Assembly (NCBI RefSeq): GCF_900099935.1 | Contig: NZ_FNEK01000003.1 | Coordinates: forward strand, 1-64,000 | Source: Aliiruegeria lutimaris | Lineage (GTDB): Bacteria; Pseudomonadota; Alphaproteobacteria; Rhodobacterales; Rhodobacteraceae | Direction of reading: 5' to 3' | Length of the DNA stretch: 64,000 bases | In this document: positions 1,976-10,546 of the stretch, piece after piece | How positions within the stretch are numbered: the stretch's first letter is position 1 | How the letters are laid out: the number at the start of each line of letters is the position of its first letter | Notes under the pieces: generated by a model | What the model was told of the DNA's origin: nothing | Database searches by the model: none | What the model saw: the letters and a program-made list of their open reading frames with translations, nothing else | Program-made: the position numbers and the translations under genes

Positions 1976-2022
1976 TGGTTGCGGGGGTAGGGTTTGAACC
2001 TACGACCTTCAGGTTATGAGCC
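1976..2022 (-). pseudogene. 3' fragment of initiator tRNA-fMet (CAT), attachment-site remnant
   Basis: On the minus strand the sequence gives the anticodon loop CTCATAA (anticodon at 2018-2016), the 3' anticodon stem, a variable loop, the T arm with GTTCAAAC, the 3' acceptor strand CCCCGCA and an encoded ACCA end at 1976. This matches the 3' half of alphaproteobacterial initiator tRNA. The 5' half (acceptor strand and D arm) is missing, because the sequence to the right of about 2022 is unrelated. Such 3' halves are what tyrosine integrases leave at one end of an element inserted in a tRNA gene. Confidence 0.75.
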
Positions 2023-2219
2023 AGAAGGTCCGATGAGATGATTACAGACCACTCTGGCCAAACGATGCGTATCGGATGGATGAGAAAAGGCTGGGAGGAG
2101 CGGCTCGGGGACCTGATGCTGGCGGAAAGCTACGCCATCGGGCGGCGGCAGTTGGCTGTCGAGCGGAACCAGAAGTTTGGCGGCGACGGCGCGAAAGGCC
2201 GAAAGCCGGTGGCCGGCGA

Positions 2220-2678
2220 TTAGTGGCCGTGGAAGCGGCCGCCCGGTCCAAATTCACTGACATCAGCGTTGAGGATCGCGTCCCATTCATCCTCAGGATC
2301 CGCTGCGCCGACTTGCGAAGCGACGTGCTGAGCCCGCCGGACGCCGATACGTTTGCCGGCCAGGTCAAGGGATTCGAGATGGGCGCGGTGAGCACGGCTG
2401 GCGCTCTCGGCCTTCTGTTGCGCCTTGGCTAGATCGGCAATTGAGAGCGACAACAGATGGGCCTCGTCGATCAAGCCCTCCCACATGCGATAGTTCTGAT
2501 CCATCCGCGCCGTTGCGTCTATAACCCGGAAATCCGATGGGAGGAGCGAACGCATGGCGCTCAGGGTGGCGATAAGGGCGTTGCGGTAGTTCAGGCCCTC
2601 GGTGTCGAGCCGGACAGTTGGGGCCGGCCAGCCAGAACTCGGGAGAGCGGCGATCTTGCGGCGTTTGGAAGTGGTCAT
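2220..2678 (-). CDS. hypothetical protein at the left end of the element
   Basis: A 152-residue soluble protein that I do not recognise. It starts MTTSKRRKIAALPSSGWP and has a helical, Ala-rich central part (residues ~85-125, with AQQKAESASRAHRAHLESLDLAGKR split over it) that may form a coiled coil. The C-terminus is acidic then Gly-rich. Upstream (2690-2760) is an AT-rich stretch with a TATATAGC-like block that could be its promoter, so it may be transcribed separately from the upstream chain. Its place at the end of a satellite-like element is where small terminase- or capsid-modifying proteins often sit, but nothing in the sequence proves that. Confidence 0.55.
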   Translation of the reverse strand: MTTSKRRKIAALPSSGWPAPTVRLDTEGLNYRNALIATLSAMRSLLPSDFRVIDATARMDQNYRMWEGLIDEAHLLSLSIADLAKAQQKAESASRAHRAHLESLDLAGKRIGVRRAQHVASQVGAADPEDEWDAILNADVSEFGPGGRFHGH

Positions 2679-2819
2679 CGGCGGTCAACTCCAATCGTAA
2701 GTTTCCATTATCTATCATCAAGTCGCCGTTTCTTTCGCTATATAGCACAATTTGAGTGATAATTTGGAAAGTTTTCTGCGTAGAAAGCACCCCTGCGCGG
2801 TGCTGGGGTCCCCAAGCTC

Positions 2820-3183
2820 TCATTTCTGAAATACCCCCCCTGCGATCAATGACTTTGCCCCTACTGCCGGTGGAGGGGGAGAACAGGACTTGTTGGGCTC
2901 TTTCTGGCGTTTCGCGGACGGGTGCAGGCGGTGGCACAGGTCGCATTGTTGCCTGACGCGCCCGCGTCTGTCCCACGCTCCCGCGATGCAGGAGAACCGC
3001 GTCCTCGACGAGGGCCTCGCCACGCCTGCGGTGGGCCTTGTGACGGCGAGCGATCGCGCGGTCTTCCCGCTCCATCAAACCCCTCAGGTCGTCTTCAGTC
3101 ATCCGTCCGCACTCCGAAATAGGCCAGCCAGGCTGCGACAAGGCCGTCTGTTTTCGCCCGATCGAGCAGGCGCCGCTGGTCAT
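2820..3183 (-). other. unresolved small-ORF region after the 97-residue gene
   Basis: An ATG at 3183 overlaps the stop of the preceding gene in an ATGA arrangement, and a second ATG at 3102 begins MTEDDLRGLMEREDRAIARR. That frame stays open far into the 2220-2678 gene, which argues against it all being real. A second frame (ending at 2820) encodes a Cys/His-containing stretch QQCDLCHRLHPSAKRQ. A third frame encodes DQRRLLDRAKTDGLVAAWLA but lacks a good start and ends at an ATGACTGA overlap with the 3102 ATG. The region is probably coding, with one or more very short genes or a decayed gene, but I cannot settle the frame. Confidence 0.3.
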
Positions 3184-3473
3184 CGTTCAGCGGCTGACAG
3201 GCCTACCAGGTGATCAACCCCAACGTCTGACAACTGATAGATCAACAGCGAGTTGCGAGACCTGGATACCAGGGCCAGGGTTGTCACCGATCGGATCCGT
3301 CGGGCAAAACGCTGGAGCGCCTTGAGCGACCGGCGCTTGCCCATCTTGTCAATGTCCTTCGAGATCTTGTCGAGGTCGCGCTTACTCGATGTCTGGACCA
3401 GGCTGAGCACGTCGCTGGAGAAGCGACGGGCCATCGCCTCGCGGAGCTGGAAGTTGTCTTGAGGGCGGTTCAT
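3180..3473 (-). CDS. hypothetical 97-residue protein
   Basis: Unrecognised small basic protein. The start chosen is the ATG at 3473, which overlaps the stop of the methyltransferase-like gene as ATGA (3470-3473), so translation is probably coupled. The longer upstream frame is a shadow of that gene. The sequence is helical and Lys/Arg-rich in the middle (SSKRDLDKISKDIDKMGKRR), ending with a more hydrophobic stretch. It is part of the minus-strand operon of the integrated element. A nucleic-acid-binding role is possible from composition only. Confidence 0.5.
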   Translation of the reverse strand: MNRPQDNFQLREAMARRFSSDVLSLVQTSSKRDLDKISKDIDKMGKRRSLKALQRFARRIRSVTTLALVSRSRNSLLIYQLSDVGVDHLVGLSAAER

Positions 3474-4081
3474 GAACGCAGATCCTTCAGGAACAGGGCC
3501 TGGTCGGCCCACTGGTTGGCCATCGCTGCCGCAACACCCGGAAAGAACCGCGAGCGCTCTTTCTGGCGGTCGGCGGATGGCGGCATGCGATGCACGCGGA
3601 CCTCCGCTGTGGAGCCGTCGAGATCGCTTGTAGGCACAAGAGGCGACAGCCCGCCTCTGAGCCAGAAGCATGTACGCTTCCTCTCGTCGTCGCCATGCTG
3701 CCATGGCTGGAGGGTGAAATCGGGCCCGCGTCCGATGATCTCGCGCGCGTATTTGTGGTGAACCGGATTCTCGACAGCCACGCAGTACGCGTTCGCGTTG
3801 AGACAGGCGGTGAAGAACTCCGCGCCCGCGCGGACCTCGGCCCATTCTTGCCGCTCTACCCGCCACCGCACGCCGCTGTTGGCCAGATAGGTGCATGGAG
3901 GGTGGGCGATCACGAGGTCCCAGCGCTCGCGGAGGAATGGCAGTACGTCACCCTGGTGATGCGGGGTGATGGCGCTTTCGGTCGGCAGGACGTCGCACGT
4001 CAGTACATCGTGGCCTGCGCGGGTGAAGGCATCGCCGACGGTGCCTGAATATTCGCAGGCAAAAAGGATGCGGAGGGTCAT
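3470..4081 (-). CDS. minimal C5-cytosine methyltransferase-like protein
   Basis: A 203-residue protein with the fold signatures of phage-type DNA cytosine methyltransferases. These are an N-terminal nucleotide-binding motif (RILFACEYSGTVGDAF, residues ~3-18), the PC catalytic motif in IAHPPCTYLANSG (around residues 58-70) and an ENP motif in VAVENPVHHKYA (around residue 100). It is much shorter than a complete C5 methyltransferase and shows no clear target-recognition region or C-terminal motifs IX/X. It may be a compact phage enzyme or an inactive relative. The start overlaps the ProQ-like gene's stop as ATGA (4078-4081). Its likely role is protecting or marking element DNA, by inference from context. 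Confidence 0.65.
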   Translation of the reverse strand: MTLRILFACEYSGTVGDAFTRAGHDVLTCDVLPTESAITPHHQGDVLPFLRERWDLVIAHPPCTYLANSGVRWRVERQEWAEVRAGAEFFTACLNANAYCVAVENPVHHKYAREIIGRGPDFTLQPWQHGDDERKRTCFWLRGGLSPLVPTSDLDGSTAEVRVHRMPPSADRQKERSRFFPGVAAAMANQWADQALFLKDLRS

Positions 4082-4518
4082 TTCTTCACCCTCCGCTTCA
4101 GGAGGCGCTGGGCGTGCTGGCGCTCGTCATCGGTCACGGTTCCGCGGTCGCCTGGAGCCGGGGATCCGTCGAGGAGGTAACGGGTGGAGCCGTCAGCAGC
4201 GAGGGCCTCGAGGTAGGGCGCCCAGGTGGTGCGGCGCTGGCAGGCTTGTTTGATGGTCCAGAGGTCGAGATCCGGGCAGGCCTCGGCGAGGGCACGATGG
4301 ATGCCGCGCGCGAGCGGTAGGATCTTGGAACGCTTGCCGAAGGCGGCGGGGAAGCGGGCTGCCAGGTCCGCCATGATGTCGTCACGGCTTGCCTTCCAGG
4401 CGCCCAGGCGCTTCTGCCTGGCAGCTTGTTGGGCGACCTCCTGGAGCCTGGCCTCCGTCGTGGTGGAGGGGAGTTTCAGGGTCAAAATCGGCCTGCGGCG
4501 GGTAGTCTGGTCGTTCAT
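4078..4518 (-). CDS. ProQ/FinO-domain RNA-binding protein
   Basis: A 146-residue protein with a ProQ/FinO core: ARFPAAFGKRSKILPLARGI (residues ~54-73), then a helix pair with QACQRRTTWAPYLEALAADG and a terminal DLDG-like YLLDGSPAPG, followed by a basic tail HAQRLLKRRVKK. Family members bind structured RNA, and several plasmid and phage members regulate copy number through antisense RNA. The N-terminal third is basic and Gln/Ala-rich. The gene is coupled to the methyltransferase-like gene downstream and lies next to the iteron cluster and helicase gene, so control of element replication is a reasonable inference. It is not the housekeeping chromosomal proQ. Confidence 0.75.
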   Translation of the reverse strand: MNDQTTRRRPILTLKLPSTTTEARLQEVAQQAARQKRLGAWKASRDDIMADLAARFPAAFGKRSKILPLARGIHRALAEACPDLDLWTIKQACQRRTTWAPYLEALAADGSTRYLLDGSPAPGDRGTVTDDERQHAQRLLKRRVKK

Positions 4519-4841
4519 TTTGGTCTCCGTTTGGTGTCTGGTCTCCTATGCGGGGGGCGTTTCCTCCGTGTTTTTTGGCTGCTACAGACGGGCCGTAGGC
4601 CAACCTGTTATCTAATTGAAATTAAAAGACTAACCGGAATAGGTGGGCTAAGTGGGCATTTTGGGGGGTGATATACAGCCTATTAGAAATCGTGTATCCC
4701 ATTGTACTTCAGGTATAAGGGTGTGTGATGGTGGTGTGAGAATAATTGAATAGTGAACAAGCCCACCTATCCCACCTACTAAAAATTTCACTATTAATAA
4801 CAGCATGTTATTGACCTTTAGTAGGTGGGACATAGGTGGGG
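4519..4841. other. candidate replication origin of the element (iteron cluster)
   Basis: This AT-rich gap between the ProQ-like gene and the helicase gene contains 9-bp repeats of the form TAGGTGGGN. On the plus strand they lie at 4640-4648 and 4649-4657 (the second is TAAGTGGGC), and at 4822-4830, 4833-4841 and 4843-4851. On the minus strand they lie at 4761-4769 and 4770-4778. The last two groups face each other across an AT-rich core (4779-4821). The last repeat overlaps the helicase stop codon. Iterons beside an SF3 primase-helicase are how P4-type and plasmid origins are built. Confidence 0.6.
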
Positions 4842-4851
4842 TTAAGTGGGG
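4640..4851. repeat. seven 9-bp iterons, TA(G/A)GTGGGN
   Basis: There are four direct copies in two tandem pairs and three more in a loose direct array. Five carry TAGGTGGG and two TAAGTGGG. The pairs at 4640/4649 and 4761/4770 have exactly 9-bp period with no spacer. The three at 4822/4833/4843 have 10-11 bp period, close to one helical turn. This spacing and orientation pattern points to cooperative protein binding. Confidence 0.7.
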
Positions 4852-6452
4852 TTATTCGTGGATTTCGAACCATTTGCCTTCCGCGCGACGGCATCGGCCA
4901 CCACCCGTCGGTTTCGCGCCCTCCTGGCCTCCATTTTGTCGGCCTCCAGCGTGATCTTGAACTGGTAGCCTTTCAGGTATTGGCTGCCTTGCGGGGTGGT
5001 GATCCTGTACCCAGCGTGCCTGAGCGCGGCCGTGATCTTCCTGGTTGATTTGGGCTCGTATTTGTTCTCCTTGCACCAGTCCGTGTACCGCTCCCGGAAC
5101 GTCGTCATCTTGATGCGGGCGTCCGGCTTCTGGACCATCTCCGAACGCACGAAGGCGAGGACCGAGTCCGCAGCTTCCCTCCACTCCTGGCGCGCGAGCT
5201 TCCCTCGCAGGGGCTCGTCCAGGCCGCCCCGATCGACGACCCGCTGGCGCGCTGCGATCAGGACGTTGAGGATCCCGCTCATTTCCGCTTCCAACTTCGC
5301 GGGTAGCTGCTCATCCGCGACTCTCAACGTTGCCGGATCAACATCCAGCTTCTCGGCCGCCTCGGCGATCTGGTGGGGCAGGTAGAACGTCTCGTCGAAC
5401 CGCACGACATACGCGCGGCGCTCAAACCCGAACGATGTATCCCTGACCGGGGGGAAGTCGTTGGCCAGAACCATCGGCGTGACCTCGCACCAGAAGTCGA
5501 ACTGCGCCCCACGCTTGGCCTCGGATCCAAGCCGCTTCGGCTCGCTAATCTTCTTGACGGTGGCGATGGGGAAAGGCGCGCCATGATCGAGATCGTCATC
5601 AACGAAGGCGATCTTTCCCAGGAGCACACCCAGGCTGAACTGGTTCACTGTCAGGCTCGATATCGGCGCGCACCTGGCCGCCGAACCAAGGAACTTGATC
5701 ATGATCTCCGACAGCTTCGTCTTCCCGTTGCTCCCGTCGCCGACGAACAACAAGAACGCTGGGAAGAGCTTCCGGGGGGAGACCACGATGGAGAGCAACT
5801 CCTCCAAGTGCCGCGCCATTTCCCGGTCGCCGCCCATCATCTCTATGAGAGCCTGCTGGAAGACTGGTGCCTCCGCCTTCGGATCGAAGGCGACATCCAC
5901 CGCACGGGTCATGTAGCTCTCTTTCCGGTGGCCCTCGTGGAACTCCATCGTCTCCATGTCCAACTCGCCGTTCAGCAGGTTCAACACCGACGGCGGCTTG
6001 GCATCGATCCCGAGGGGATCACCGTGTTGGGTGACCATCTTCCGCAAAAGCTTGCTCGCCTGCTGGACGACGGAGTCGAAGGTGAACCGCTCCAGGTCGA
6101 GGCTAGCGTGCATCCCCTCGGCGACGGCAGAGATACTCGAATCCACCTGCTCCCAGGACCTGGTCATCCAGACGCGTCCGCTCCATTCCCAAAAACGGCC
6201 GTCGTGGCAGAACATCAGCTCGTCGCTCTGCCAGACCTCGCTCAGCGTCGCTGTCGCCACCCTGTGACCATCGTCGGGGATCCCCCCGTTGGACTGCTTG
6301 TGTAGCCGCTTCAAGTCACCCATGACGCTGGCCTTCGATCGGCTGTGCCCGGCCTCGCGGCTCTTCTGGGCCAGGTCAGCCGCGAGCGGCTCCCAGAACC
6401 GGCGGGGCTGGATCACGATCTGCACCAGCTCCTCGTCGTAATCGAACTCCAT
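4842..6452 (-). CDS. SF3 helicase, D5/P4-type phage/plasmid primase C-terminal domain protein
   Basis: A 536-residue replication helicase. Walker A is GDGSNGKTKL (around residue 245), Walker B is FVDDDLD, and a sensor-type VLANDFPPV follows; these are features of the D5_N/DUF5906 primase-helicase group. The N-terminal ~200 residues match the D5 N-terminal region, with LLNGELD just before the ATPase. I chose the ATG at 6452. It overlaps the primase-like gene's TGA by one base, is preceded by a CACGGAGGGAA ribosome-binding site, and the 69 residues upstream in the open frame look like a shadow. The 3' end runs into the iteron cluster. It probably unwinds element DNA at that origin, loaded or primed by the neighbouring protein. 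Confidence 0.85.
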   Translation of the reverse strand: MEFDYDEELVQIVIQPRRFWEPLAADLAQKSREAGHSRSKASVMGDLKRLHKQSNGGIPDDGHRVATATLSEVWQSDELMFCHDGRFWEWSGRVWMTRSWEQVDSSISAVAEGMHASLDLERFTFDSVVQQASKLLRKMVTQHGDPLGIDAKPPSVLNLLNGELDMETMEFHEGHRKESYMTRAVDVAFDPKAEAPVFQQALIEMMGGDREMARHLEELLSIVVSPRKLFPAFLLFVGDGSNGKTKLSEIMIKFLGSAARCAPISSLTVNQFSLGVLLGKIAFVDDDLDHGAPFPIATVKKISEPKRLGSEAKRGAQFDFWCEVTPMVLANDFPPVRDTSFGFERRAYVVRFDETFYLPHQIAEAAEKLDVDPATLRVADEQLPAKLEAEMSGILNVLIAARQRVVDRGGLDEPLRGKLARQEWREAADSVLAFVRSEMVQKPDARIKMTTFRERYTDWCKENKYEPKSTRKITAALRHAGYRITTPQGSQYLKGYQFKITLEADKMEARRARNRRVVADAVARKANGSKSTNNPT

Positions 6453-7513
6453 CACACTTCCCTCCGTGCAAGGAATGCGCGGAGCGCATCCACGTCGAGG
6501 GCTTGCGCTGGGTTCGTGAGCCGCTGGCGGGCCCGCAGCTCCTTCATCGCGGCGCCCATTTCGTTCTTGTGCTCGAAGAACACGAACAAATCGAAGCTGT
6601 CGCCCCAGACGTAGTCGATCTTGTGCTTCGCGCCGATCTTCGCGTCGCGGTCGGCCCAACTCATGCTGACCCAGTGTGTGTGGAAGTTCCTCGTCGCGAA
6701 GGACTCGCTCGTCTGCATCGGCGAGCGCCAGTTGTCCGTAGTGGTGCCGTTGCGGACTTCCTGTACATAGCCATACCTGGCCAGCAGGTCCTCGATCGGG
6801 TTCCGCCTATTGAAGATGTCGATCATCACGATGGCGGAACGCGACGTGATCCACTTCTTCGTGTCCTCGACCTCGACCTCGCGCTCCTTCAGGAGCGAGT
6901 GCCCCTCGTCGAGGGTGAGGAAGTCGCCCGAAATCCACTCGTAGTGATAGTAGTCGCCCTTATTCGGCAAAAAGCAGAGCTGCCCTGGCCTTGCGAGGAC
7001 GGGGTCGATTATCAGGCCCTTGTCCATCAGCCTGTCGAAGAAGTTCCACTGCGCCTTGGCCCAGGTGTCACCGTCGAGGGGCTGGGCCAGCGGGATCAGC
7101 ACCCGCCACTTCCGCTCGGTGGGTTTCGCGCCGCGCGAGGCGTAGACGAGGGCCTCGACGCCGCGCCCTACGCAGGCCTGCGCCGCGGCGATGACGCGCC
7201 CCACCGGGGGGTCCCCCGCGTCGATGTCCGCCGCCAAAACGCCAAACATTCCCTGCTCGCGCTGGGTCGCATGGTTGCGCGCCTCGGGACCTGCGTAGGA
7301 GCCACATAGCATCCATGGACCGTTGATCTTCGGAACCGAGGGAGGATCCATCGCCCAGCAGACGATATCGCTCCAACCGATGGTCTCGTAGGGTGTCCCG
7401 GCGGCCTCGCGGGTGTTCTTGCTCCCGTCGCCGAGGGTGGTGGCGTGCGTGTCGCCGCTACCAAATCCTATCGGGAAGGTTGATTCTCCTATGTGGGTCG
7501 CCTGCGCATCCAT
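6452..7513 (-). CDS. primase-like N-terminal module (PrimPol/RepB-type) of the replication pair
   Basis: A 353-residue protein just upstream of the helicase gene. Residues ~85-175 contain VLAADIDAGDPP and YASRGAKPTERKWRVLIPL, which resemble the acidic and basic catalytic strands of archaeo-eukaryotic primase-polymerases found in phage and plasmid replication proteins. A later ARPGQLCFLPNKGDYYHYEW stretch is also common in those proteins. In many elements this module is fused to the SF3 helicase; here the two are separate, translationally coupled genes. The C-terminal half is not recognised. The alternative is a replication-associated protein with no priming activity. Confidence 0.65.
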   Translation of the reverse strand: MDAQATHIGESTFPIGFGSGDTHATTLGDGSKNTREAAGTPYETIGWSDIVCWAMDPPSVPKINGPWMLCGSYAGPEARNHATQREQGMFGVLAADIDAGDPPVGRVIAAAQACVGRGVEALVYASRGAKPTERKWRVLIPLAQPLDGDTWAKAQWNFFDRLMDKGLIIDPVLARPGQLCFLPNKGDYYHYEWISGDFLTLDEGHSLLKEREVEVEDTKKWITSRSAIVMIDIFNRRNPIEDLLARYGYVQEVRNGTTTDNWRSPMQTSESFATRNFHTHWVSMSWADRDAKIGAKHKIDYVWGDSFDLFVFFEHKNEMGAAMKELRARQRLTNPAQALDVDALRAFLARREV

Positions 7514-7572
7514 TGCGTCTGTCCCTCGATGTTGGAGCCAGACGCAAACTGTTGTATAAACGGTCTGCGTCC
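7514..7572. promoter_or_regulatory. candidate operator of the replication genes (TGCGTCTG half-sites)
   Basis: A perfect inverted repeat TGCGTCTG (7514-7521) / CAGACGCA (7539-7546) has a 17-base spacer, and a third partial half-site TGCGTC follows at 7566-7571. They lie directly upstream of the primase-like gene start (7513). The left half lies between its ribosome-binding site (GAGGGA) and ATG. A repressor bound here would block both transcription and translation start. The DNA-binding protein encoded at 7936-8208 is the obvious candidate partner, by inference. Confidence 0.4.
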
Positions 7573-7607
7573 AGGCTATTGGTAGTGGTCCGACGACGGC
7601 TCATGAC

Positions 7608-7628
7608 CGCCGCCCCTCGTGGGCGGCG
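7608..7628 (-). terminator. hairpin after the 7631-7939 gene
   Basis: A GC-only 8-bp stem (7608-7615 with 7621-7628) and a 5-base loop lie 3 bases downstream of the stop of the 102-residue gene. There is no T tract on the minus strand, so it is a weak candidate terminator or mRNA-stabilising hairpin. Confidence 0.35.
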
Positions 7629-7630
7629 TT

Positions 7631-7939
7631 CTACCTTTCGGGATCCATGCCTTTCAGGATGGCCCATGCGCGGGCCTGCAACGCGTTAGACTCTCGGTAC
7701 AGGTCCTGGGCTGCAACGATCTGGTCGAGGTGGGTCATCTCATCCGGATTGACCTCGAACGGCTCGTCTCCGCCGTTGCCATCATAGATGCCCGCGCGGT
7801 AGGCGTCGGCCTCCGCCTGGGTCGCGAAATCGCGGAGATAGACCGCTCCCTCCTCGTTGAGCTTGAGCACGTCACGCTCGCCTTCGTGCCAGGACGAGTC
7901 CCCAACGTGCGGATGCACTATGACTACGCGGTGGGTCAT
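7631..7939 (-). CDS. hypothetical 102-residue protein
   Basis: An acidic soluble protein of unknown function. The first 45 residues (MTHRVVIVHPHVGDSSWHEG ... AVYLRDFATQAEADAYRAGI) look like a small alpha/beta fold of the kind seen in DUF2188-like phage proteins, but I cannot assign a family. Its ATG overlaps the stop of the DNA-binding protein gene as ATGA (7936-7939), so the two are co-translated. It is likely an accessory early gene of the integrated element. Confidence 0.55.
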   Translation of the reverse strand: MTHRVVIVHPHVGDSSWHEGERDVLKLNEEGAVYLRDFATQAEADAYRAGIYDGNGGDEPFEVNPDEMTHLDQIVAAQDLYRESNALQARAWAILKGMDPER

Positions 7940-8208
7940 CCTGCTTTCCTTTCTTCGTTTGCGCGGGCCGCCTTCTGCGTCTCGCTCCAGGGTTCATCAA
8001 TGACGGCCTCGTATTTCGGCTGGGCTTTCACCCAGGCATCAAGGTCGTCGGGATCGTAGAGGGGGGTGCGGCCATTGCGTGTGTAACGCGGGCCCTCGCC
8101 GCTGGTTCGCTTGGTCTGGAGTGTCGAGACCTTCATCTCGAAATTCCACGTCTCGAGCAGATAGGCAGCGGCCTGGTCCTGCTTCAGCAGGGGGCGTGTT
8201 GTCGTCAT
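7936..8208 (-). CDS. helix-turn-helix DNA-binding protein (AlpA/MerR-like excisionase type)
   Basis: A 90-residue protein. LLKQDQAAAYLLETWNFEMK followed by VSTLQTKRTSGEGPRYTRNG and PLYDPDDLDAWVKAQ forms the pattern of the winged helix-turn-helix family pfam12728 (excisionase/AlpA-like), where the second helix and the wing recognise DNA. AlpA-type proteins switch on excision or the late genes of satellites and islands. I start at the ATG at 8208, preceded by GGAGG with good spacing, not at the upstream TTG. It is coupled to the downstream 102-residue gene. A palindrome (8256-8281) lies in its upstream region. Confidence 0.75.
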   Translation of the reverse strand: MTTTRPLLKQDQAAAYLLETWNFEMKVSTLQTKRTSGEGPRYTRNGRTPLYDPDDLDAWVKAQPKYEAVIDEPWSETQKAARANEERKAG

Positions 8209-8255
8209 TGTACGTGCCTCCGAATCGTCATGGAGGCATGGATAAATCAAATTTT

Positions 8256-8281
8256 TTGGGAGTAAGGAGCCTTAGCCCCAA
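8256..8281. promoter_or_regulatory. imperfect palindrome upstream of the helix-turn-helix gene
   Basis: TTGGG-AG-TAAGG pairs with CCTTA-GC-CCCAA around a two-base centre (12-bp half-sites with a short internal mismatch), flanked by T runs on both sides. It lies 48 bases upstream of the 8208 start. On the plus strand it is followed by TTTTTT and would look like a terminator, but no plus-strand gene ends here. On the minus strand it is followed by A residues. An operator is therefore the better reading. Confidence 0.35.
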
Positions 8282-8323
8282 TCTTTTTTGTTCATGGTAT
8301 GTTCTTTGCCGCGCGCGGCAAAA

Positions 8324-8662
8324 TCAGCGCCTGGTGGGCAGGCGCCGTTGCAGTTCGTCATGACTTGGAACGGGTGAGAGGCCCTCTTCCTTCATCTTCC
8401 GGCGGATCCTGGCTGCCCGTTCGCTCTTTCGGTGGATGCCCGAGTCGAGCGTGGCGTCGAGCGCGAAGACGCGGGCCCAATCGATCACGCGTGGGCGCCC
8501 GCCCGTCTTGCCCAGGTCGCGGGCATGGTATTGGGCGGCCATCGCGTCCAGTTCCGTCCTGGCATCGCGCGCCTCGGCGAGCAGGATATTGATCGCGTCG
8601 CGCAGGAGCGGGTCCTGACGGCAGGCTTCCCAGACGCGTCGGCTGGCCTCGATCCTATCCAT
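8324..8662 (-). CDS. hypothetical 112-residue protein next to the integrase
   Basis: A charged, mostly helical protein of unknown family. The N-terminal half is a long helix (around residues 20-45, LRDAINILLAEARDARTELD), and the C-terminal half is basic with ARIRRKMKEEGLSP. It overlaps the 3' end of the integrase gene by 8 bases, so it is co-translated with it. Small genes in this place in satellites often encode recombination directionality or regulatory proteins, but no such motif is visible. Confidence 0.55.
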   Translation of the reverse strand: MDRIEASRRVWEACRQDPLLRDAINILLAEARDARTELDAMAAQYHARDLGKTGGRPRVIDWARVFALDATLDSGIHRKSERAARIRRKMKEEGLSPVPSHDELQRRLPTRR

Positions 8663-9881
8663 GAGCGAGCCTCACGACATTGTCGGCGGTCTCGTGCCCG
8701 ATGATGTCGCCCAGGACCTGCCCCCATTGGCGCGCGGCAGTCCGCATCGCAGCGACCCGCGCAGAACTCTGGTATGTGCCCTTGATCCCTGACCGGACGT
8801 GCATCAGCCACAGGTCGAAGGCATCCTCGTCGATCGTCTCGACCTCCTCGCCCGTCAGCGTCGAGGCGGTGCGGCGCAAGTCATGAAGCTGCCAGCCTGT
8901 CACACCTGAGAGGTGATCGAGTTTCGCCTTGGCGGCTGATGACAGGCTGACCATCGGGCCTCGGTCGCCGTCGAAGACGTAGCCCTCGCCCTCGCCCACC
9001 ACCCCGAAGGCGATGTCGTTGAGTGGCAGGGCCCAGGGCCTGCGGCTCTTGTTGCCGCGTGCATCGGCGCCCACGCGGATCAACTGCTTGCCGAGATCGA
9101 CGTTGGAGTAATGCAACTCACGGGCGATGGAGGTTCGAACGGGCATCGCGATCAGGAACCGCACCAGGCGCCCGTAGCGGCCCATCTGGTCGCATGTTTC
9201 CCAGACTGCCTTGATCTCCTCGGGCGAGAGGAACCGCTCACGCTGGATGCTTCCAAGTGGCGCCTCGACGGCATCGGCGGGGTTGGACTCGAGCAGGCCC
9301 AGCGTGACAGCAAGCCGGAGCATCCGGTGGATGACTCCGTGGATCTTCTTCCTGGAGCTGGGCGCCAGGTCTGCCAGTTTCAGGTGCGCCTTGCGGATCG
9401 TCACGGGGGTGATGCTCGAGATGGGCGTATCGGCACCCAGGAGCCCGATCGCCCGCCGCGCGTCCTTCTTCTCGCTCTTGATGGAATCCGGACGGGGGAT
9501 CTTTCGCTGCTTTGACAATCCGCCGGCCTCGAACAGCCGGAGATACTCGTCGGCGATCTTGGCGACCGTTACCTCCTGGGCCTTGCGCGTCTCCTCCTCT
9601 GCGACAGGGTCGATCCCCTGACGGAACAGGGATCGCAGCTCCTCGGCGCGGATGCGAGCGGCCTTCGCGGGCATCACGCCTGCATCGCCGATCGTGATGT
9701 AGCGCTGCTTCCCACCTTTTACGCGCCCGTAGAACGCCCAGGCGCAGCCTGTACGGTTCACCCGCAGGCGGAACCCCCTCAGGCTCGTATCGGACAGGAT
9801 AAGCGTGTCGGCGCCCTCGGGGAGGGATACCTTGCGCGGAGTATCGGCGCGGAGCGCCTGGGTGATGCTGACAGTGGGCAT
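8655..9881 (-). CDS. int: tyrosine recombinase / P4-type integrase
   Basis: This integrase inserts and excises the element at a tRNA gene. The N-terminal arm-binding domain (RGFRLRVNRTGCAWAFYGRV, DUF4102-like) is followed by a SAM-like core-binding domain and the catalytic domain. Catalytic residues seen are Arg in MPVRTSIARELHYSNVD, HxLRR in LHDLRRTAST, a His in LMHVRSGIKGTYQ and the likely nucleophile Tyr in the same GTYQ. The ATG at 9881 (408 residues) is preferred over an upstream GTG at 9935 (426 residues). The gene reads away from the tRNA-Leu fragment 160 bases upstream, the usual layout for an integrase next to its att site. Confidence 0.88.
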   Translation of the reverse strand: MPTVSITQALRADTPRKVSLPEGADTLILSDTSLRGFRLRVNRTGCAWAFYGRVKGGKQRYITIGDAGVMPAKAARIRAEELRSLFRQGIDPVAEEETRKAQEVTVAKIADEYLRLFEAGGLSKQRKIPRPDSIKSEKKDARRAIGLLGADTPISSITPVTIRKAHLKLADLAPSSRKKIHGVIHRMLRLAVTLGLLESNPADAVEAPLGSIQRERFLSPEEIKAVWETCDQMGRYGRLVRFLIAMPVRTSIARELHYSNVDLGKQLIRVGADARGNKSRRPWALPLNDIAFGVVGEGEGYVFDGDRGPMVSLSSAAKAKLDHLSGVTGWQLHDLRRTASTLTGEEVETIDEDAFDLWLMHVRSGIKGTYQSSARVAAMRTAARQWGQVLGDIIGHETADNVVRLAHG

Positions 9882-10039
9882 TCTCGATTCCAGTAGACAA
9901 CCAGTAGACAAACCAGCCTGATATATGGCTGGCACTCAACTGATACTGAAATCCTAGTAGACACACAATAGGCTTTATTTTGAATGGTATTTGCCAAATT
10001 TCCCCTAGAAAAGTCCTTTGCGTTCAATAGCTCTTCGAA

Positions 10040-10097
10040 GGATTCAAAATCCCCCGTCCTAGCGGGCGTGAGAGTTCGAATCTCTCCTCGGGCACCA
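10040..10097 (+). pseudogene. 3' fragment of tRNA-Leu (CAA), attachment-site remnant
   Basis: The plus strand reads the anticodon loop TTCAAAA (anticodon CAA), the 3' anticodon stem, a long type-II variable arm (CGTCCTAGCGGGCG), the T arm GAGAGTTCGAATCTCTC, the 3' acceptor strand CTCGGGC and an encoded ACCA ending at 10097. The matching 5' strand GCCCGAG and the D arm are absent upstream, so the gene is not functional. It marks the right junction of an element integrated into a tRNA-Leu gene, directly beside the integrase. Confidence 0.8.
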
Positions 10098-10546
10098 ATC
10101 AATTTCAATGACTTGCGGCCTAGGTTTTCGGGGCAAACGCAAATTAAGCTGCTGGCTTCCACAAGCGCCATCCACATCAGCTGTCAGACCACTCAAGTGG
10201 GGCTGCCGAGGGGAGGCTCACACCTTCGTGGCGACGCAACGACATAACTGCTCGAAAAAGCAGTAGAATCTGGTCCGTCTCAACTTCTTTTGCAGCGCCG
10301 CCGGCCCCGGCGCGCCAGCCCAAAGAGCCTGAGGCACTTTCTTCGCCAGACCCGGCTCTACTGTATCAACCTCCGACATGACCGCTCTTCTTCGCGGATC
10401 GTCACAATCCGACCTTGGAAAGTCGGTGCCGTTTGGGGGCTGTCGTGGGGACCAGGGCCTGATCGCACCCTAGTTCCTGAAGGCGGACCTGTGCCGACCG
10501 CTTCGCCAAGGCACAACGCAATCAGATATTTCTTGCAAGAAGGATC
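10098..10546. other. non-coding stretch between the element and the nos operon
   Basis: About 450 bases with only shadow-type frames and no recognisable gene. A short palindrome around TTTCTTGCAAGAA lies at about 10530, just upstream of the NNR box. Confidence 0.4.

Follow-up and report, generated by a model that had tools for sequence, protein, structure and literature searches.

A candidate iteron-type replication origin beside a P4-type helicase gene in a genomic island of Aliiruegeria lutimaris

A repeat array at the end of a helicase gene

We analyzed the first 64,000 nucleotides of a contig of Aliiruegeria lutimaris (NZ_FNEK01000003.1), which we call the window. Near its left end, a putative island lies between the 3' halves of two tRNA genes. 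Its features, with the basis for each assignment, are as follows:

1976 to 2022, minus strand: 3' half of tRNA-Met(CAU), marking the left boundary of either the island or a second element (sequence comparison)
3470 to 4081, minus strand: DNA methyltransferase-like protein (phrog_757)
4078 to 4518, minus strand: ProQ/FinO-like protein, downstream of the candidate origin (domain profile)
4640 to 4656, plus strand: iteron pair 1, two copies of TARGTGGG (motif scan)
4762 to 4778, minus strand: iteron pair 2, two copies of TAGGTGGG (motif scan)
4779 to 4821, no strand: AT-rich core, candidate melting site (base composition, sequence)
4822 to 4850, plus strand: iteron triplet, three copies of TARGTGGG, the last overlapping the helicase stop codon (motif scan)
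4842 to 6461, minus strand: P4-type SF3 helicase, 539 amino acids, candidate reader of the iterons (D5_N, DUF5906, TIGR01613)
6452 to 7513, minus strand: 353-amino-acid protein, putative primase-side half of a split primase-helicase (match to a fused homologue)
7936 to 8250, minus strand: excisionase or transcriptional-regulator-like protein (phrog_66, E = 8e-6)
8655 to 9935, minus strand: tyrosine-type integrase (Arm-DNA-bind_3; phrog_1)
10040 to 10098, plus strand: 3' half of tRNA-Leu(CAA), marking the end of the island next to the integrase gene (sequence comparison)

The integrase gene, the excisionase-like gene, the primase-side gene, the helicase gene, the repeats, the ProQ-like gene, and the methyltransferase-like gene follow each other in one direction. 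The excisionase-like protein has just the weak match to phrog_66 and no match in Pfam or NCBIfam.

A first-pass annotation of the DNA had described seven copies of a 9-bp motif, in two tandem pairs and a triplet. When we scanned both strands for TARGTGGG, we recovered all seven copies as exact matches, spanning 4640 to 4850; the 9-bp unit consists of eight specified bases and one free base. The copies begin at 4640, 4649, 4822, 4833, and 4843 on the plus strand and at 4762 and 4771 on the minus strand, with start-to-start spacings of 9 bp in each pair and of 11 and 10 bp in the triplet. The groups are thus ordered ++ / -- / +++ as read on the plus strand. There are no additional copies with one mismatch between 4500 and 5000 and no further exact copies anywhere in the window. 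Shuffled windows had an average of 1.03 copies (the largest count was 4), and none of 100 reached 7. The entire genome (5.8 Mb) contains 49 matches (27 + 22), and this is the only such cluster.

The second and third groups do face each other, as had been noted, across 43 bp that are 74% AT (4779 to 4821). For comparison, the AT content is 38% over 2000 to 10100 and 60% over 4657 to 4761. Inside the AT-rich core is a palindrome with 6-bp arms, AATAAC-AGCAT-GTTATT (4796 to 4812). The reported overlap with the helicase gene is real: the last copy (4843 to 4850) and the stop codon of this minus-strand gene (4842 to 4844) have two bases in common.

The helicase and its partner

The adjoining gene had been called an SF3 helicase, and profile searches agree. 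Its product matches TIGR01613, the family that includes the alpha protein of phage P4, with 129.1 bits (the cutoff is 108.7), as well as D5_N (E = 3.1e-13) and DUF5906 (E = 2.9e-6).

Family profile searches with the product of the preceding gene (6452 to 7513) found nothing above any cutoff. However, residues 13 to 324 of its 353 residues align with residues 34 to 361 of a fused primase-helicase frame of 890 amino acids from locus L014 (36% identity, E = 2.5e-63; L numbers are our handles for loci). The two proteins from the window sum to 892 residues. In the window, the two genes overlap, with the primase-side stop codon at the helicase start (GTGATGG, within 6452 to 6461), whereas in L014 they are fused. 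Locus L389 is likewise split, into open frames of 438 and 527 amino acids.

When we compared the helicase to sequences in the Protein Data Bank, we found a weak relative, 7ola (E = 1.9e-5), which is labelled as a DNA primase and which we take to be a SaPI5 protein. Another match, 8eyr (E = 0.00097), was judged to be spurious. Structure predictions without an alignment were poor, with mean pLDDT of 40.8 and 36.1. The best of the C-terminal blocks was at residues 431 to 480 (pLDDT of 57 to 86), with a winged-helix-like order of elements. The same genome encodes a second DUF5906 helicase, on contig C67, with four copies of AGTAGCC past its stop codon.

The ends of the island

The tRNA-Leu(CAA) half lies about 105 bp from the start of the integrase gene. 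Compared with intact copies of this gene, it has 97% identity across 70 bp to one from another genome of the genus and 84% across 69 bp to the one from its own genome. The tRNA-Met(CAU) half at the other end is matched in all 9 genomes of the genus, and the flank to its left, back to about 1877 or further, is common to 6 of the 8 other genomes. Among 14 loci with this type of left flank, 6 have an intact tRNA-Met and 8 have none. The region from 1671 to 2022, including the tRNA-Met half, is probably an integration hot spot in the genus.

Comparing the two ends of the island revealed no direct repeats with lengths of at least 11 bp and no matching attachment sites. Because the ends are halves of different tRNA genes, the island may be rearranged or inert; it may be a composite (hybrid). 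None of the scanned proteins from the island was recognized as a terminase or as a packaging or interference protein, but several of them have no match to any family, and some phage-inducible chromosomal islands (PICIs) lack terS.

Two other observations concern the surroundings. The contig begins with an IS1182-family element (1 to 1675, transposase at 67 to 1506), and contigs C53 and C107, from the same genome, carry copies of it with 100% identity. Also, the extreme end of contig C82 (1501 to 1695 of locus L387) encodes a fragment that corresponds to residues 74 to 138 of the primase-side protein, with 97% identity. This fragment could be from a second copy of the gene or from a junction.

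Related helicases keep the position of the repeats and change their sequence

If the repeats are read by the helicase, then similar arrays might be expected next to homologous genes. Homologues of the helicase, all of them distant, were found in 5 of 385 genomes from the class and in 4 of 390 genomes from the order (both counts include A. lutimaris itself), and a search of genome contigs and viral contigs did not confirm any relative. Downstream of most of the distant homologues, other short facing repeats occupy the same place: GTGACG in L014 and L015, and GTGTAG in L016. In L012, only a weak inverted pair is present. Since the nearest homologues use other repeat sequences (words), conservation of the motif cannot serve as evidence here, and we therefore sampled helicases by family instead of by motif.

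Within the host's family, 86 of 295 genomes encode DUF5906. We scored 96 loci: 88 of the 90 DUF5906 loci that we fetched and 8 helicase loci (7 homologues and the window's own). Two of the fetched loci were left out, one with an internal stop codon (L265) and one with a short frame (L336), and another 21 DUF5906 matches lie outside the fetched set. In 51 of the 96 loci, at least four copies of a single 7-mer are found in the first 300 bp beyond the helicase stop codon, and 48 of these 51 have copies on both strands. In control regions, such arrays are rare: 4 of 96 at the end of the gene and 3 of 91 at 450 to 750 bp downstream. For 49 of the 96 loci (48 of them among the 51), none of 60 shuffles reached the observed count. 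After redundancy was reduced at 80%, arrays remained in 43 of 84 loci. We did not find a four-copy array within 300 bp past the stop codon in the other 45 of the 96 loci. Thus, the expectation of conserved arrays held, in 51 of the 96 loci, for short facing repeats at the same place, and it failed for exact TARGTGGG, as the homologous helicases that we examined carry other words. The first-pass annotation correctly called the motif an unfamiliar one, but judging from these loci, a private repeat motif is the rule in this group of helicases.

The interlocking of the repeats and the gene also recurs. In L306 and in L315 to L317, the TGA stop codon is part of a TGACGCA repeat, and the repeats overlap the stop codon in L014 to L016 as well.

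We also considered eight named phage or plasmid records, which were picked by their helicase match only. Four of these have four-copy arrays: the mycobacteriophages ZoeJ (on one strand only), LilPharaoh, and TClif, and a Singulisphaera plasmid. No four-copy array was found in the other four records. In LilPharaoh and TClif, seven copies of AGCACAG and nine copies of AGAACAG, respectively, lie directly past the primase/helicase gene, and these repeats are possible origins of isolated phages. In both ZoeJ and TClif, the array shares bases with a small gene in the annotation.

The helicase C-terminus and the repeats tend to change together

TARGTGGG itself is common beside helicases of a VapE phage family. 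We scanned 79 of 80 VapE loci for the motif (the remaining one, L214, ends early), and we used the proteins from 51 of the 80, leaving aside those that were redundant or incomplete or were not selected. Of 133 exact matches to TARGTGGG, 130 lie 0 to 300 bp past the helicase gene, in 43 of the 79 loci; for the reversed motif, 0 of 25 matches are in that region. More distant members of the family carry other words.

Close relatives with different words suggest which part of the helicase matters. Between 21 loci with GGTGGG repeats and a close group of 9 loci with GGTAGG repeats, the VapE helicase has 18 fixed differences. Fourteen of the 18 are in the last 75 of 691 residues, which reflects essentially one divergence, as these 9 loci (repeat class B1) have closely similar C-termini. 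Within the GGTGGG group, these last 75 residues are no more variable than the rest of the protein. One locus departs from the pattern: L195 is close to the GGTGGG group, yet its repeats are GGTAGG. Most of its C-terminus is of the GGTGGG-group type (mean identity of 0.87). By eye, it differs at positions that include 637, 638, 659, and 681, which are 4 of the 14, and of those four only residue 659 matches the GGTAGG group. The repeats of L195 have changed with few changes in the C-terminus, and in the comparison with L190, its DNA identity is lowered only past the stop codon.

DNA identity between L190 and L199 is 0.80 to 0.96 for most of the gene, falls to 0.64 to 0.81 in the last 300 bp and to 0.40 to 0.71 in the next 300 bp, and beyond the repeats it is 0.85 to 0.92 (at +375 to +525) and then 0.54 to 0.91. 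A dip that starts at the 3' end of the gene and extends across the repeats, followed by a rise, is also seen for L173-L199 and L276-L277. Pairs of the same class show no dip: L173-L190 (0.79 to 0.88 across the origin region) and L277-L279. For L277-L280 and L276-L280, identity dips without recovering beyond the repeats.

In the DUF5906 set, we compared the drop in identity from the core to the C-terminus. The mean difference is 0.15 for 19 pairs with the same word and 0.26 for 33 pairs with different words (Mann-Whitney P = 0.0016, which is only indicative because the pairs share members). Here, two loci have the same word if the word of either is present at least twice in the other, which includes L276-L280 and L260 with L014 or L015. 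Same-word pairs are also more similar in the core (0.82 versus 0.61), and some of them have unlike C-termini (0.14 for L327-L013). Nine pairs with core identity of 1.00 and unlike C-termini were judged to be alignment artefacts, and the test was repeated with a minimum aligned length.

Together, the fixed differences, the identity dips, and the tendency in the DUF5906 set point to the C-terminus of the helicase as most likely the part that reads the repeats. They also suggest that, in these relatives, the reader and its target tend to change together.

A candidate origin and its alternatives

Several known replicons have a similar layout. As described in PMC6092414, the origin of PICIs of Gram-positive and Gram-negative bacteria lies immediately 3' of the initiator gene, with sets of iterons flanking an AT-rich region, and in Gram-negative PICIs the integrase, regulator, primase-helicase, and origin are arranged in a single direction. 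The window has this origin layout, and its integrase, primase-helicase, and origin are in the same one-way order, but it has another motif, mismatched tRNA halves, and no recognized terminase, packaging, or interference gene. For the AlpA- or MerR-type regulator of a PICI, there is only the weakly matching excisionase-like protein. In PMC7581432, the C-terminal domain of SaPI Rep is said to recognize iterons directly downstream of its own gene (citing Ubeda 2007), and Cch2 of SCCmec, a D5_N-type helicase, binds its own direct repeats downstream; its AAGTG iterons, of which three were found, are needed for activity. Like these systems, the window has a D5-type helicase with candidate cognate iterons directly downstream and a putative primase alongside, but the proteins are distant. 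The plasmid pRN1 has an essential origin-like stem-loop downstream of its replication gene, and similar structures are reported in several bacteriophages (PMC4234260). This stem-loop is about 100 bp, with no iterons recognized, whereas the window has tandem facing iterons and a palindrome with 6-bp arms. The PLE satellite has a different type of initiator, according to PMC7145576. Among titles and the beginnings of abstracts, mostly from open-access papers, we found no survey of this layout beyond PICI/SaPI, SCCmec, pRN1, and PLE, and nothing relevant to the repeat words by title among the matches listed.

The first-pass annotation had proposed that the array is the origin of an integrated element, and the P4-type helicase, the integrase and tRNA halves, and the PICI/SaPI layout all support this. 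Because the cluster is far beyond chance, and given the identities of the genes, the arrays beside homologues, the link to the C-terminus in VapE, and the SaPI precedent, the repeats are very probably the iterons of the own replication origin of a satellite-like element, read by the neighboring helicase. This kind of origin is already known; the element and the repeat word are new. We infer binding, melting, priming, and replication by this element from sequence. The helicase would bind the iterons via its winged-helix-like C-terminal domain, assemble on both sides of the AT-rich core, melt it, and unwind outward; the protein encoded at 6452 to 7513 would supply primers, and a host polymerase would complete the copy. 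With the origin at the 3' end of the reader's gene, reader and target would stay linked and tend to change together.

Could the repeats instead be operators, at which a regulator such as the excisionase-like protein controls a promoter for the ProQ-like and methyltransferase-like genes? Tandem operators are common, and a promoter is plausible where the array lies, as the gene that follows the helicase gene has the same orientation. Against this stand the facing groups across an AT-rich core, the arrays that stay with the end of the helicase gene across many unrelated neighborhoods, and the words that tend to change with the helicase C-terminus, and we consider this explanation highly improbable. 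It is also quite unlikely that the site is an origin whose main reader is a host factor or the primase-side protein, with the repeats acting mainly as start sites for primers. The repeats do contain GTG, where the primase of pRN1 starts (PMC4234260), and the primase-polymerase of SCCmec primes at its iterons (PMC7581432), but many relatives have repeat words that lack GTG, and the tendency of words to follow the helicase C-terminus fits better with the helicase as reader. Both roles could coexist.

A more serious concern, although we still doubt it, is that the site was once such an origin, in an island that has since become a rearranged, inert relic and no longer excises or replicates. The left end with half of tRNA-Met and the right end with half of tRNA-Leu fit with this, as do the IS1182-type element at the start of the contig and the nearly identical primase-side fragment at the end of contig C82. 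On the other hand, the helicase, its partner, and the integrase all have open frames, and none of the seven repeats has a mismatch. Also, decay would affect the present activity of the island and not the identity of the site, so it is compatible with a cognate origin that is read by the helicase.

We are evenly divided on a broader proposal: that facing iterons at the 3' end of the reader's gene may be a general design for origins of D5/VapE-type replicons, including tailed phages, satellites, and plasmids, instead of a hallmark of PICIs, with the last 200 to 300 bp of the helicase gene and the next 300 bp forming a single specificity cassette that is exchanged or co-evolves. The proposal is made less probable by the pairs whose identity does not recover beyond the repeats and by L195, where the change is confined to the repeats. 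If it is correct, then origins of D5/VapE-type elements could be predicted from gene position alone. In any case, an unannotated cluster of repeats in an uncharacterized island has become a located and testable candidate origin. From the survey, it seems that this layout, which has been described as limited to PICIs, is common among phages, and one plasmid has it as well. Natural pairs with similar helicase cores but different C-termini and repeats should be useful for studying how initiators and origins achieve specificity.

TARGTGGG beside other replication genes

TARGTGGG is also found next to other kinds of replication genes. From at least 151 stretches with the motif, we scanned one protein from each of 20, picked because a large frame was nearby; these numbers are not a frequency, and among the matches listed, the loci in other replicons were selected by the motif itself. 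Several of the 20 proteins are unrelated (an Hsp70 and a Mu F-like protein, for instance). The C-termini of the proteins beside TARGTGGG arrays in other replicons have no detectable similarity to that of the window's helicase or, across unrelated families, to each other, so a common reader of TARGTGGG is not supported. Motif scans placed TARGTGGG past a VapE gene with Prim-Pol (L118) and past a DUF5906 gene (L079); L118 is on the contig of a tailed phage, as shown by its genes for a sliding clamp and a terminase. The motif is also found past genes of Prim-Pol types (L159, L161, and L152) and of a TOPRIM/RecA-like type (L102). In Acidisoma, a partly duplicated array of TARGTGGG in the order +++ -- +++ (2862 to 3106 of L037) lies just past a primase-like gene.
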